Shown piece after piece: positions 2,842 through 6,354 of a DNA stretch of 11,877 bases. The notes under the pieces are model-generated. The model did not search any database. It was given only the letters and a program-made list of their open reading frames with translations, and was not told the DNA's origin. A program made the translations under genes and the position numbers. This DNA comes from Planctomycetaceae bacterium (GTDB lineage: Bacteria > Planctomycetota > Planctomycetia > Isosphaerales > Isosphaeraceae): positions 1 through 11,877 of the forward strand of contig JAFANO010000386.1 in the NCBI GenBank assembly GCA_019232645.1. Reading direction: 5' to 3'. Numbering within the stretch: the first letter of the stretch is position 1; each line of letters opens with the position of its first letter.

Positions 2842-3789
2842 CTACGACAGGAGCCGCCCAGGTGTTTCATTCGCCGGGTTGGAGTCGGCGGTAGTGATTC
2901 CGCCCTGAAACACCCTGCTCTGCCGGATATCGTCGGCGTCGATGCGCGCCAGCTCCTCGCGCGAGACCACGCCTCCCTGTCGGATCAGTCGGCCGGCCTG
3001 GCGCAGCTTCGCGCGGTCGATCGCGTTGCGGACGCTGCGCGCGTTGGCGAAGAGTGGCTGCTGGACCCGCAGCGCCAGGTATTCGGCGAACACCTTCCGA
3101 GACTCGTCATCGAACGAGTACATCTGCTGACTCAACATCAGCTCGGCGATCTCCATCAGCTCGTTCAGCGAGAAGTCCGGGAAGTCGATATGGTGCGCGA
3201 TCCGCGAGCGAAATCCCGGGTTCGACTGGAAGAAGGTGTCCATGCGCTCCTTGTAGCCGGCCAGGATCACCACCAGGTCGTCGCGCTGGTTCTCCATCAC
3301 CTGGAGCAGCATCTCGATCGCCTCCTGGCCGTAGTCGCGCTCATTCTCGGGGCGGTAGAGGTAGTAGGCCTCGTCGATGAACAGCACGCCGCCCATCGCC
3401 TTCTTCACGATCTCCTTGGTCTTCGGCGCGGTGTGGCCGACATACTGGCCGACCAGGTCGTCGCGCGTCGCCACCACCAGATGGCCCTTGCGGACATAGC
3501 GCAGATGATGCAGGATTTTCGCCATCCGCACCGCCACGGTGGTCTTGCCGGTGCCGGGCCGGCCGGTGAAACACATGTGCAGCGTGGGCCGCTCGGTGCT
3601 CAGTCCAGACTGTTCGCGGAGCCGCGCGATGAGCAGCAGCGAGGCGATCTCGCGGATGCGCGTCTTGACCGGCGCCAGCCCCACGAGGTCGCGGTCCAGC
3701 TCGTCGAGGATCGGCTGGATGTTCGACTCGCGGTAGACCTCGTCGAGGTCGATCGATGTCTTTTCGACAGTCACTTCTTCTAAACTCAT
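2842..3789 (-). CDS. cbbX: red-type RuBisCO activase CbbX (AAA+ ATPase)
   Basis: Hexameric AAA+ motor that reactivates inhibited red-type RuBisCO by threading the C-terminal tail of the large subunit through its pore (family knowledge). The protein has 315 residues, about the usual length. Visible elements: Walker [10 protein letters not shown] (K82), the pore-loop segment LVGQYVGHT (Y116), Walker B VLFIDEA (D139, E140), an arginine-finger region NPGFRSR (R194, R196) and a sensor-2 region NARSVRNAI (R251). The last 20 residues are divergent and look flexible. The ATG at 3789 begins a CbbX-like N-terminus; its ribosome site is weak (a GCGAGACG stretch only). It is third in the cluster, 122 bases after cbbS, and its spacer carries a long stem (3833-3897). 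Its presence confirms that the RuBisCO is red-type, since green-type enzymes use other activases. Confidence 0.95.
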
Positions 3790-3832
3790 AAGCGTCTCGC
3801 CCGTCCCAAGAGTTCAGGCACTCGGACCAGGA

Positions 3833-3897
3833 GACAAGGAGCGCGCGGTACAATCACACCCCGCAGATCCATCCCAGCCTTTCCGCGTCTCCTTGTC
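3833..3897 (-). promoter_or_regulatory. long stem-loop between cbbS and cbbX
   Basis: GACAAGGAG at 3833-3841 pairs with CTCCTTGTC at 3889-3897, and CGCG at 3842-3845 continues the stem with CGCG at 3884-3887. Only one base (3888) is bulged, giving 13 pairs around a 38-base loop. No U-tract follows in the direction of transcription, so it is not a classical terminator. In the mRNA it begins about 15 bases after the cbbS stop and ends about 43 bases before the cbbX start. A role in protecting the cbbLS message or lowering cbbX expression is inferred. Confidence 0.6.
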
Positions 3898-3911
3898 CCG
3901 CTGTCCAGGGA

Positions 3912-4334
3912 TCAAGACTCGTAGCGCATCCCCTCCGGCCGGTCCGTCGCGTATGCATGGATCGTGTACTTCACCACCCGGTCTTCGAACTCCTGGCGCT
4001 CGACGCGGAAGCCCGGCTCCTCCTTCGGCCGCTGGACGATGAAGCTGAGCGCGGTGGTCTGCCGGCCGAAGCGCCGATCATAGCCGTTGACGCGGACGTA
4101 GTGGTTGGGGAACGCCTCGCGACAGCGGTTCAGCTCGAACATGACCGCCGCCGGGTCCTTCATGTCGAACATCGGGAGATCCCACAGATCCCAGTAGACG
4201 TTGCGCGGGTGCGGGTCGTCCGTGTACTCGATCGAGATCGGCCAGTCGTTGTCCAGGCAGTACTGCACCTGTGCCTTGATATCGTCATCGGTGAAGTCGG
4301 GCAGGTAGGAGAAGGTGCCCTGGGTAATTCTCAT
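3912..4334 (-). CDS. cbbS: RuBisCO small subunit, red-type form I
   Basis: Small subunit that caps the L8 core of form I RuBisCO in the carboxysome-free cytoplasmic enzyme (L8S8). At 140 residues it has the length of the red-type (IC/ID) proteins. It starts with [12 protein letters not shown], continues with AQVQYCL (21-27), the diagnostic [12 protein letters not shown] segment (36-48), a CR-x-x-P-x-H-Y-RVN-D region (71-86) and LSFIV-RP-EEPGF-RQE (96-115). Residues from about 108 to the end form the C-terminal hairpin extension typical of red-type small subunits, and the internal loop near 41-45 is short, as expected. GAGGT at 4340-4344, 5 bases ahead of the ATG, supports the start. It lies 571 bases after cbbL, much farther than usual, and an AT-rich stretch just upstream could hold its own promoter. 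Confidence 0.95.
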
Positions 4335-4365
4335 CGCGGACCTCGTTGAAGGTGAGAGGAAAGTA

Positions 4366-4410
4366 GGTGACCGGAAAAAATTACCAGATCACCTTATAAC
4401 TCTTGTCTAG
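4366..4410 (-). promoter_or_regulatory. possible cbbS promoter region (AT-rich)
   Basis: Read on the minus strand this stretch holds TAGACA (five of six bases of a -35 box) and TATAAG (five of six of a -10 box), but they are too close together to form one promoter. A GGTGA / TCACC dyad (4366-4370 and 4389-4393) flanks a run of six A/T. It lies some 30 to 75 bases ahead of the cbbS start. This is suggestive only. Confidence 0.25.
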
Positions 4411-4452
4411 GTTATTGCTCTTTCCTCATCGCAAATCCTTTGGCAGGTAAAA

Positions 4453-4506
4453 GGGACAATAAGAAGACGGGAGAACCGGTTCCGTTTTACGGTCTTCCTT
4501 TGTCCC
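4453..4506. repeat. imperfect 54-bp inverted repeat in the cbbL-cbbS spacer
   Basis: GGGACAA (4453-4459) pairs with TTGTCCC (4500-4506); after a small internal loop GAAGAC (4463-4468) pairs with GTCTTC (4492-4497). The interior contains the 10-bp palindrome GAACCGGTTC (4473-4482) and the small hairpin CCG-TTTTA-CGG (4482-4492). It may be a structured RNA, a protein-binding site or a remnant of a small mobile element. Confidence 0.5.
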
Positions 4507-4834
4507 CACCCCATCATGAAGCCATGGCCTCTGGCCGTGCGACCCGAAGCGCTACGAGCGATCCGGCATGCCTCTGGGCTTGGCCCCTCGTTCGGGAGAT
4601 AATTCCGATGGGCCCGCAGTGCTTCGGGGACGAGAGAGAGGCCGCCGCTCGGAGGCGCGCCGAAGAAACGCCCGCGGGGGCCGGCCCGAGACGGCGACCA
4701 TATGTGAGGCATGAGTCAGATGAACTCCCCGCCCCTATTGGGGGCTTCCTGACGGAATCGGCCTGCTCGGGGGGCCCTCCTGATCCCTTGGCCTCTAGCC
4801 GAGGTTGGTCATTTCGAGGCGATCCAGAGAGGGT

Positions 4835-4857
4835 ACCCGCCCCTTTCGGAGGCGGGT
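4835..4857 (-). terminator. strong hairpin just after cbbL (terminator- or processing-like)
   Basis: In the minus-strand transcript, ACCCGCC and GGCGGGT form a 7-bp G/C stem; a U-G and a C-G pair can extend it to 9 pairs with a CGAAA loop. It begins about 49 bases after the cbbL stop at 4906. The downstream sequence is pyrimidine-rich (ACCCTCTCT) but lacks a true U-tract, so partial termination or 3'-end protection is more likely than full termination. Confidence 0.45.
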
Positions 4858-4905
4858 GGCGCCGCGCTGATTGCCCTTGTCAGAGGAGACTTCTCGGGTC
4901 GCCTC

Positions 4906-6354
4906 TTAGAACGTCGGCGTGACCAGAGCATCCGGCACGTCCGTCGACGTGAATTCGAACGTAATGTCCTTCCACGTCTCCAGCGCCTTGCGGAGCGAAG
5001 GCGACCACCGAGCGGCGCGGGCCAGGATCTCGGGCCCCTCGTTCAGATAGTCGCGGCCCGCGTTGCGCGCCTGAATCATCACCTCCACCGCGACGCGGTT
5101 GGCTGTCGCGCCCTGGGCGATGCCGTCGGGATGGCCGATCGTGCCGCCGCCGAACTGGAGCACGACATCCTCGCCCAAGTAGTGCAGCAACTGGTGCATC
5201 TGGCCGGCGTGGATCCCGCCCGACGCCACCGGCATCGTCCCCGGCATCGAGGCCCAGTCCTGCTCGAAGTACAGTCCCTGCAACGGGTTAGCGTCGACCT
5301 TGTTCTCGCGCAGCGTGTTGTAATAGCCCTGCACGGCGTTCGGGTCTCCCTCCAGCTTGCCGACGACCGTGCCGGCGTGGATGTGGTCGACCCCGGCCAG
5401 GCGCATCCACTTGCTAATCACGCGGAAGTTGACGCCGTGGGTCTTCTGGCGGGTGTAGGTGCTGTGGCCGGCGCGGTGCAGGTGCAGGATCAGGCTGTTC
5501 TTCCGCGCCCAATTCGCCATCGACTGGATCGCCGTGTAGCCGATCGTCAGGTCGATCATGATGATCACGCTGCCCAGCGCCTTGGCGAACTCGGCCCGCT
5601 CGTACATCTCCTCCATCGTGCCGGCGGTGACGTTCAGGTAGTGGCCCTTGATCTCGCCGGTGGCAGCCATGGCCTTGTTGACCGCCTCCATGCAGAACAG
5701 AAACCGGTCGCGCCAGCGCATAAACGGCTGCGAGTTGATGTTCTCGTCGTCCTTCACGAAGTCCAGGCCGCCGCGCAGCGCCTCGTAGACCACGCGTCCG
5801 TAGTTGCGCGCCGAGAGGCCAAGCTTCGGCTTGGTCGTCGCGCCGAGCAGCGGGCGGCCGTACTTGTTCAGGTGCTCGCGCTCCATCACGATGCCATGCG
5901 CCGGGCCCTGGAAGGTCTTGACATAGTGCGGCGGGATGCGCATGTCCTCCAAGCGCAGCGACTTCAGCGCCTTGAAGCCGAACACGTTCCCGATGATCGA
6001 CGAGGTCAGGTTGGCGATCGAGCCCTCCTCGAACAGGTCCAAGTCGTAGGCGATGTAAGCGATGTACTGATCGGAACCCGGCACCGGGTCGACGCGGTAG
6101 CACTTCGCCTGGTAGTGCTCATGAGCGGTCAGGCGATCGGTCCAGACCACGGTCCACGTGGCGGTGGAGGACTCGCCCGCCACCGCTGCGGCCGCCTCGA
6201 TCGGCTCGACACCCTCCTGCGGCACCAGCCGGAACGCGCACAGGATGTCAGTATCCTTCGGCTCATAGTCGGCATCGTAGTAGCCCATCTCGGCGTACGG
6301 CGTAACGCCGGCAGCCCAGCGATTCTTCTGCGCCCCATCGGTCTTCACTGCCAT
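4906..6354 (-). CDS. cbbL: RuBisCO large subunit, red-type form I (IC/ID-like)
   Basis: Catalytic subunit of ribulose-1,5-bisphosphate carboxylase/oxygenase: adds CO2 to RuBP to give two 3-phosphoglycerates. At 482 residues it is full length. Visible active-site elements: E61 in ESSTATW, N123 in GNVFGF, K175 and K177 in TTKPKLG, the carbamylation and Mg-binding set K201, D203, E204 in [12 protein letters not shown]293/R294 and H297 in HLHRAGH, loop-6 K333 in [10 protein letters not shown]378 in VASGGIH and the phosphate-binding QFGGGT (400-405). [18 protein letters not shown] and the [14 protein letters not shown] context are red-type traits. The C-terminal tail after TSTD (about 469-482) is the part CbbX is expected to grip. 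The start is firm: AAGGAGG (6361-6367) lies 6 bases upstream. No catalytic residue is missing, so I infer an active carboxylase, not a form IV RuBisCO-like protein. Confidence 0.98.

Follow-up and report, generated by a model that had tools for sequence, protein, structure and literature searches.

A red-type form IG RuBisCO cluster, probably acquired by transfer, in a planctomycete draft genome with an unlinked phosphoribulokinase and a second, form I'-like large subunit

How does a planctomycete come to carry a complete set of red-type ribulose-1,5-bisphosphate carboxylase/oxygenase (RuBisCO) genes with no phosphoribulokinase (PRK) gene beside it, and what could the enzyme do there? The question is raised by the cluster cbbL-cbbS-cbbX (cbbLSX), found on the minus strand at positions 2842 to 6354 of an 11,877-base-pair (bp) stretch of DNA from Planctomycetaceae bacterium (assembly GCA_019232645.1, contig JAFANO010000386.1), here called the window. 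The window is the entire contig C508 of a draft genome, G000, which comprises 3.86 Mb in 777 contigs and is 81% complete and 3.2% contaminated. We consider it probable that the cluster encodes a working red-type form I RuBisCO of subtype IG together with its activase CbbX, that it was gained horizontally in this planctomycete family, and that it serves a Calvin cycle with an unlinked PRK.

The three genes are intact. cbbL (4906 to 6354, minus strand, as are the other two) encodes a red-type form I large subunit of 482 amino acids that matches both large-chain domains (PF00016, 453.6 bits; PF02788, 159.8 bits). Its large-subunit motifs are complete, including ESSTATW, and we take them to be those of catalysis. 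cbbS (3912 to 4334) encodes a small subunit of 140 amino acids that matches PF00101 (133.8 bits). Of the 12 PDB chains that score best, 11 align with it over residues 1 to 137 and the twelfth over 1 to 123; with the other 42 chains the alignment stops by residue 109. With these chains divided into what are presumably red and green types, the pattern fits a red-type C-terminal extension. cbbX (2842 to 3789) encodes a red-type activase of 315 amino acids that exceeds the CbbX equivalog cut-off (TIGR02880, 499.4 versus 459.25 bits), matches the solved CbbX 3SYK with an E value of 7e-125 and shows, when read by eye, the Walker motifs GRPGTGKT and LFIDEA. These results agree with a sequence-only reading of the same stretch, which had described an intact red-type cluster with complete catalytic residues in CbbL, a C-terminal extension in CbbS and an activase with intact Walker motifs. 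The subunits would be expected to form an L8S8 complex. CbbX proteins pull on the C-terminus of CbbL and so free blocked active sites, and the same action would be expected here.

The kind of RuBisCO was assessed with trees of the three proteins, in which stop codons within tblastn spans were taken as X. A first CbbL tree contained 112 of 114 rows (L185 and L186, the same genes as L214 and L215, were dropped), and a careful one contained 53 of the 114, hand-picked by the analyst. In the careful tree the window CbbL pairs (support 98/93) with that of locus L024, from Planctomycetaceae bacterium isolate CP_BE_BS_28; this second RuBisCO-bearing planctomycete, taken to be genome G006, belongs to the same family as G000 but to another genus. 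The pair is nested in a clade of 33 rows (98/96) whose members come from Chloroflexota, Acidobacteriota, Gemmatimonadota, Verrucomicrobiota and further groups. The CbbX tree (64 of 90 rows) recovers the planctomycete pair with support of 99 within a 25-row clade at 100, and the CbbS tree (78 of 110 rows) recovers it at 95, its deeper placement being unresolved; the L1xx and L2xx loci, except L112, were dropped from both. Among the best 80 of at least 574 confirmed CbbL relatives from a scan of named species genomes, the closest are L024 (94% identical) and Kouleothrix (91%), while Anaerolineae, Sulfotelmatobacter and Oscillochloris are mostly at 85 to 89%. The form IE enzymes of Actinomycetota are also red-type, with CbbL about 80% identical, but their main clade is separate (8 rows, 100/99).

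This placement fits form IG, apart from actinobacterial form IE and proteobacterial form IC, the label being given by the phyla listed in PMC13374853 and not from the alignment of that paper. Form IG was proposed there (ISME Commun. 2026) for red-type CbbL across Chloroflexota, Acidobacteriota, Gemmatimonadota, Verrucomicrobiota, Bacillota and Planctomycetota, and the paper reports it in Planctomycetota of Espinhaco soils and suggests transfer. This already described group gains a further member in the window cluster.

Form I RuBisCO is sparsely distributed around G000. It occurs in 2 of the 45 family genomes compared (G000 and G006) and in 1 of 392 genomes drawn across the phylum (G000; G006 is not shown as drawn), and two other genomes of G006's genus, 99 to 100% complete, are without it. 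In G006, cbbLSX sits between an MMPL-type transporter gene and a ClpC-like gene (named from their translations), with no PRK or CbbR match in 19.5 kb. The neighbours differ from those in G000, and the module therefore lies at different places in the two planctomycetes. Because the trees set the window proteins with one same-family planctomycete amid other phyla, and because the distribution is so sparse, horizontal transfer of cbbLSX into Planctomycetota, as the sequence-only reading had proposed, appears well supported. The source would be a pool common to Chloroflexota, Acidobacteriota and Gemmatimonadota. It is very improbable that the IG enzyme is instead ancient in Planctomycetota, with losses in almost every lineage. 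The trees leave the direction of transfer unfixed, and the enzyme occurs in two genera of the family, but their sequences form a single shallow pair inside a many-phylum clade. Form I is also absent from 43 of the 45 genomes of the family and from 391 of the 392 drawn across the phylum, which would demand very many losses.

A planctomycete host is supported by the flanking gene uvrA (7696 to 10515, minus strand), which groups with the same-family genomes G026 and G009 (support 96), in keeping with the planctomycete-like background noted earlier. Queries for PRK and CbbR taken from an Afipia plasmid gave no match in the window (E cut-off 1e-8, coverage of half the query), so that the reported lack of prk and cbbR there holds. 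The accompanying expectation that such clusters have cbbR and further Calvin-cycle genes nearby was a fair one. Among the 80 related loci, many of which end early at contig ends, a cbbR-like match was found in 41 and PRK in 58.

The kinase is found elsewhere in the genome. G000 has one PRK-family match, on contig C17, which passes the NCBIfam phosphoribulokinase cut-off (408.1 versus 236 bits), and G006 likewise has one, on contig C148, which has no RuBisCO match. The two PRKs are 80% identical and both are unlinked to cbbLSX. In the PRK tree they pair at 98 within a 23-row clade (99) that also holds 10 Chloroflexota, 8 Acidobacteriota and three unassigned rows. Given this multi-phylum clade, and given the position of PRK immediately after cbbX in 21 of the 67 related loci with a visible cbbX, prk seems to belong to the same pool. 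Most simply, RuBisCO and PRK would both have been drawn from a single pool, with their linkage lost in the planctomycetes. Of the three-gene module suggested earlier, the transfer of cbbLSX stands, but prk, though on another contig, would come from the same pool. The suggestion of a partial pathway is not supported, given PRK in both genomes, and a RuBisCO without PRK is ruled out by the same two genes. cbbLSX would then serve a Calvin cycle with the PRK of C17 in G000 and that of another contig in G006. PRK and cbbLSX are present in the same draft genome but, the bin being mixed, may belong to different cells. Three other PRKs (P0122, P0124 and P0127), 82 to 84% identical to that of C17, lie on contigs of 183 to 225 kb unmatched to the best 120 CbbL rows of either list, and perhaps represent further planctomycetes with an unlinked PRK.

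Contig C17 (locus L004; 6,967 bp) also carries a second RuBisCO. A large subunit lies at its start, with PRK 81 bp past its stop codon, so that positions 254 to 2782 hold the second large subunit and the only PRK detected in the genome. About 1.3 kb further on are tatD, a Fur-family gene and nusA. Where the sequence-only reading had allowed for a full Calvin cluster elsewhere, this form I' cbbL-prk pair was found instead, in searches that did not extend genome-wide to cbbR or the remaining Calvin enzymes. The C17 large subunit scores 796.9 bits against 6URA and at most 753.8 bits against any other solved chain, and its tail is shorter and without the red-type end. It pairs with a sequence from the Chloroflexota genome G823 (support 96) in the first CbbL tree and is nested among 6URA-like relatives in a form I' tree from which three banana proteins, five synthetic ones and two short ones were left out. 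In PMC9802188, 6URA is the form I' reference, and form I' is described with PRK in Anaerolineae. By its grouping with 6URA-like sequences, the C17 large subunit is assigned to form I', the small-subunit-free kind. No small-subunit gene was found on C17 among the listed open frames or by query, with only about 250 bp of upstream sequence available and PF00101 not having been sought on other contigs. Of 400 Chloroflexota genomes drawn, G823 alone has a close form I' (77% identical), and its PRK is 51% identical to that of C17. The best 120 form I' relatives, where named, belong to Chloroflexota groups, KSB1 and one Bacillota, with three plant proteins and synthetic constructs being less similar. 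Separately, 15 of 59 relatives (L006 at 247 to 1596, and L007 to L020) show a weaker PF00016 match (E 9e-32 to 4e-9), perhaps from form IV RuBisCO-like proteins.

The PRKs of C17 and G006 share a 13-row clade (support 92) that contains none of the 13 PRKs presumed to be form I'-linked (their linkage is inferred) and 0 of 18 PRKs from cbbLSX loci. The lack of both favours a PRK already resident in the planctomycetes, with the form I' gene coming to lie next to it later; alternatively, the two may have arrived jointly. The remainder of the contig resembles the host. In the stretches around nusA in 18 relatives, tatD adjoins in 18 and tatD together with fur in 15, and the similarity of this host block to G026 extends to C17 position 3672. 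The closest sequence to the C17 nusA is the bin's other nusA copy, followed by those of G026 and G009 (a group of seven, with modest support of 87/86), the same nearest genomes as for uvrA in the window.

We put forward tentatively, as a possibility below even likelihood, that one planctomycete cell carries form I' beside prk and form IG with small subunit and activase elsewhere, one PRK of the multi-phylum pool feeding both. Form I' in a planctomycete, and not the window cluster, would be the new part. If true, it would place form I' in a new phylum, this form having so far been placed in Chloroflexota only in the literature searched. The two states of the step in which the small subunit was added would stand side by side in one living cell, and a small-subunit-free and a small-subunit-dependent RuBisCO could be compared in one cytoplasm. 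No report of form I' in Planctomycetota was found in the literature searched, which left out preprints and most subscription papers and in which the prime sign is unsearchable.

Several observations weigh against the explanation of a transferred cluster serving a Calvin cycle. The order of phyla within the 33-row CbbL clade is unresolved, leaving donor and direction open, and no empty site could be shown, the other genes of the window being unmatched in 19 stretches around uvrA. The third-position GC of cbbLSX (0.88 to 0.91) lies inside the range of the flanking genes (0.85 to 0.96); base composition carries no sign of recent import and neither supports nor opposes transfer. Two versions of nusA with 91.3% identical DNA are present in the bin (L129 1 to 717, a nusA fragment on C53; L004 6250 to 6966, on C17), which probably mixes two related populations. 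C508 and C17, and hence the two RuBisCOs, may for this reason come from different sister strains. Between prk and the host block, C17 has an AT-rich array (3105 to 3358) of partly self-complementary units of about 21 bp (CAAATTTGAGATTTCAGATTT-like), at which a false join is possible. Lastly, searches for NiFe hydrogenase (PF00374), CoxL (TIGR02416, E up to 1e-60) and a photosynthetic reaction centre (PF00124) found none in G000, which is 81% complete, or in G006.

Some of these observations would also suit RuBisCO contigs misbinned or misassembled from another phylum, the planctomycete itself having no RuBisCO. The fragmentation of the bin into 777 contigs, its 3.2% contamination, the duplicate nusA and the array on C17 point that way. 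This is unlikely, however, as the contig of cbbLSX also bears a uvrA placed within the family by its tree, G006 carries these genes too, at 94% identity and with a sister PRK, and the fur, tatD and nusA block of C17 is kept in the family. In favour of a transferred IG cluster with an unlinked PRK, the set recurs in two separate bins of the family, and the tree in PMC13374853 puts Planctomycetota in the same IG clade.

Enzyme activity, a complete cycle and an autotrophic or mixotrophic life are what we infer from gene content, and the G000 planctomycete may fix carbon dioxide. Aerotrophy, that is carbon dioxide fixation driven by trace gases, is unsupported, with neither NiFe hydrogenase nor form I carbon monoxide dehydrogenase detected in the two genomes; PF00374 matches do occur in 26 of the 45 family genomes, many of them weak or partial. 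Phototrophy through a PF00124 reaction centre is likewise unsupported (0 of 45 family genomes). PMC9938248 reports hydroxylamine oxidation in soil Isosphaeraceae and 38 autotrophic metagenome-assembled genomes across seven phyla, among which that of L024 may be included. With none of the three energy systems found and no linked Calvin genes at either planctomycete cluster, RuBisCO could have a salvage or redox-sink role, for example with ribulose bisphosphate serving to regenerate oxidised cofactors while the cell grows on organic carbon. We regard such a role as possible but rather less likely than a Calvin cycle. Both genomes retain an activase and a true PRK, which would also serve carbon dioxide fixation; a redox sink needs PRK too, so that gene content does not decide. 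Two genera with the same borrowed RuBisCO, a sister PRK and none of the three energy systems would point to carbon fixing or recycling that is unstudied. Calvin-cycle genes are barely described in Planctomycetota in the literature searched, which gives form IG in the Espinhaco soils (PMC13374853) and a predicted phosphoribulokinase in a Phycisphaerales metagenome-assembled genome (PMC11411797).

The planctomycete loci resemble known systems in part. The form IG clusters of PMC13374853 are alike in having a red-type CbbL across phyla and rbcLS with a red-type activase. The ktedonobacterial ones have cbbR copies, gapA and prk nearby, in genomes with hydrogenase and Cox genes, whereas the planctomycete cbbLSX stands alone, with prk unlinked and neither energy system found. 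The red-type operon of Afipia carboxidovorans plasmid pHCG3 has the same cbbL-cbbS-cbbX order and a 75% identical CbbL, but is adjoined by cbbR, fbp, prk, tkt, gap, pgk, fba and rpe as well as cox and hydrogenase genes, none of which are in the window. The C17 pair recalls the form I' of Anaerolineae (PMC9802188) in its best match to 6URA and the PRK next to it, with no small-subunit gene found in the 6,967-bp contig, and differs from known form I' in that the contig has planctomycete-like genes and the bin also holds a small-subunit-bearing IG enzyme.

Besides uvrA, the flanks of the cluster contain a calcineurin-like phosphoesterase gene (754 to 2058, minus strand) and a second phosphoesterase gene (10726 to 11601, minus strand, start uncertain), as in the earlier description of the flanks as uvrA and phosphoesterase genes. 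Within the cluster, the spacer between cbbL and cbbS (4335 to 4905) is unusually long, at 571 bp compared with −4 to 170 bp (median, 21) in the 80 related loci. It has no similar DNA among the loci compared, and Rfam gave 0 matches anywhere in the window; a mobile element within the spacer is unsupported on both counts. Much of the spacer is occupied by an open frame of 101 codons on the same strand (4407 to 4712). A promoter scan was uninformative, with 2 sigma-70-like sites versus 0.8 expected. Immediately upstream of the cbbL ribosome-binding site (6368 to 6402), two 16-bp direct copies of AAGCACACCAAGTCGT, 3 bp apart, were seen by eye, and these are possibly a regulator site or a product of slippage.

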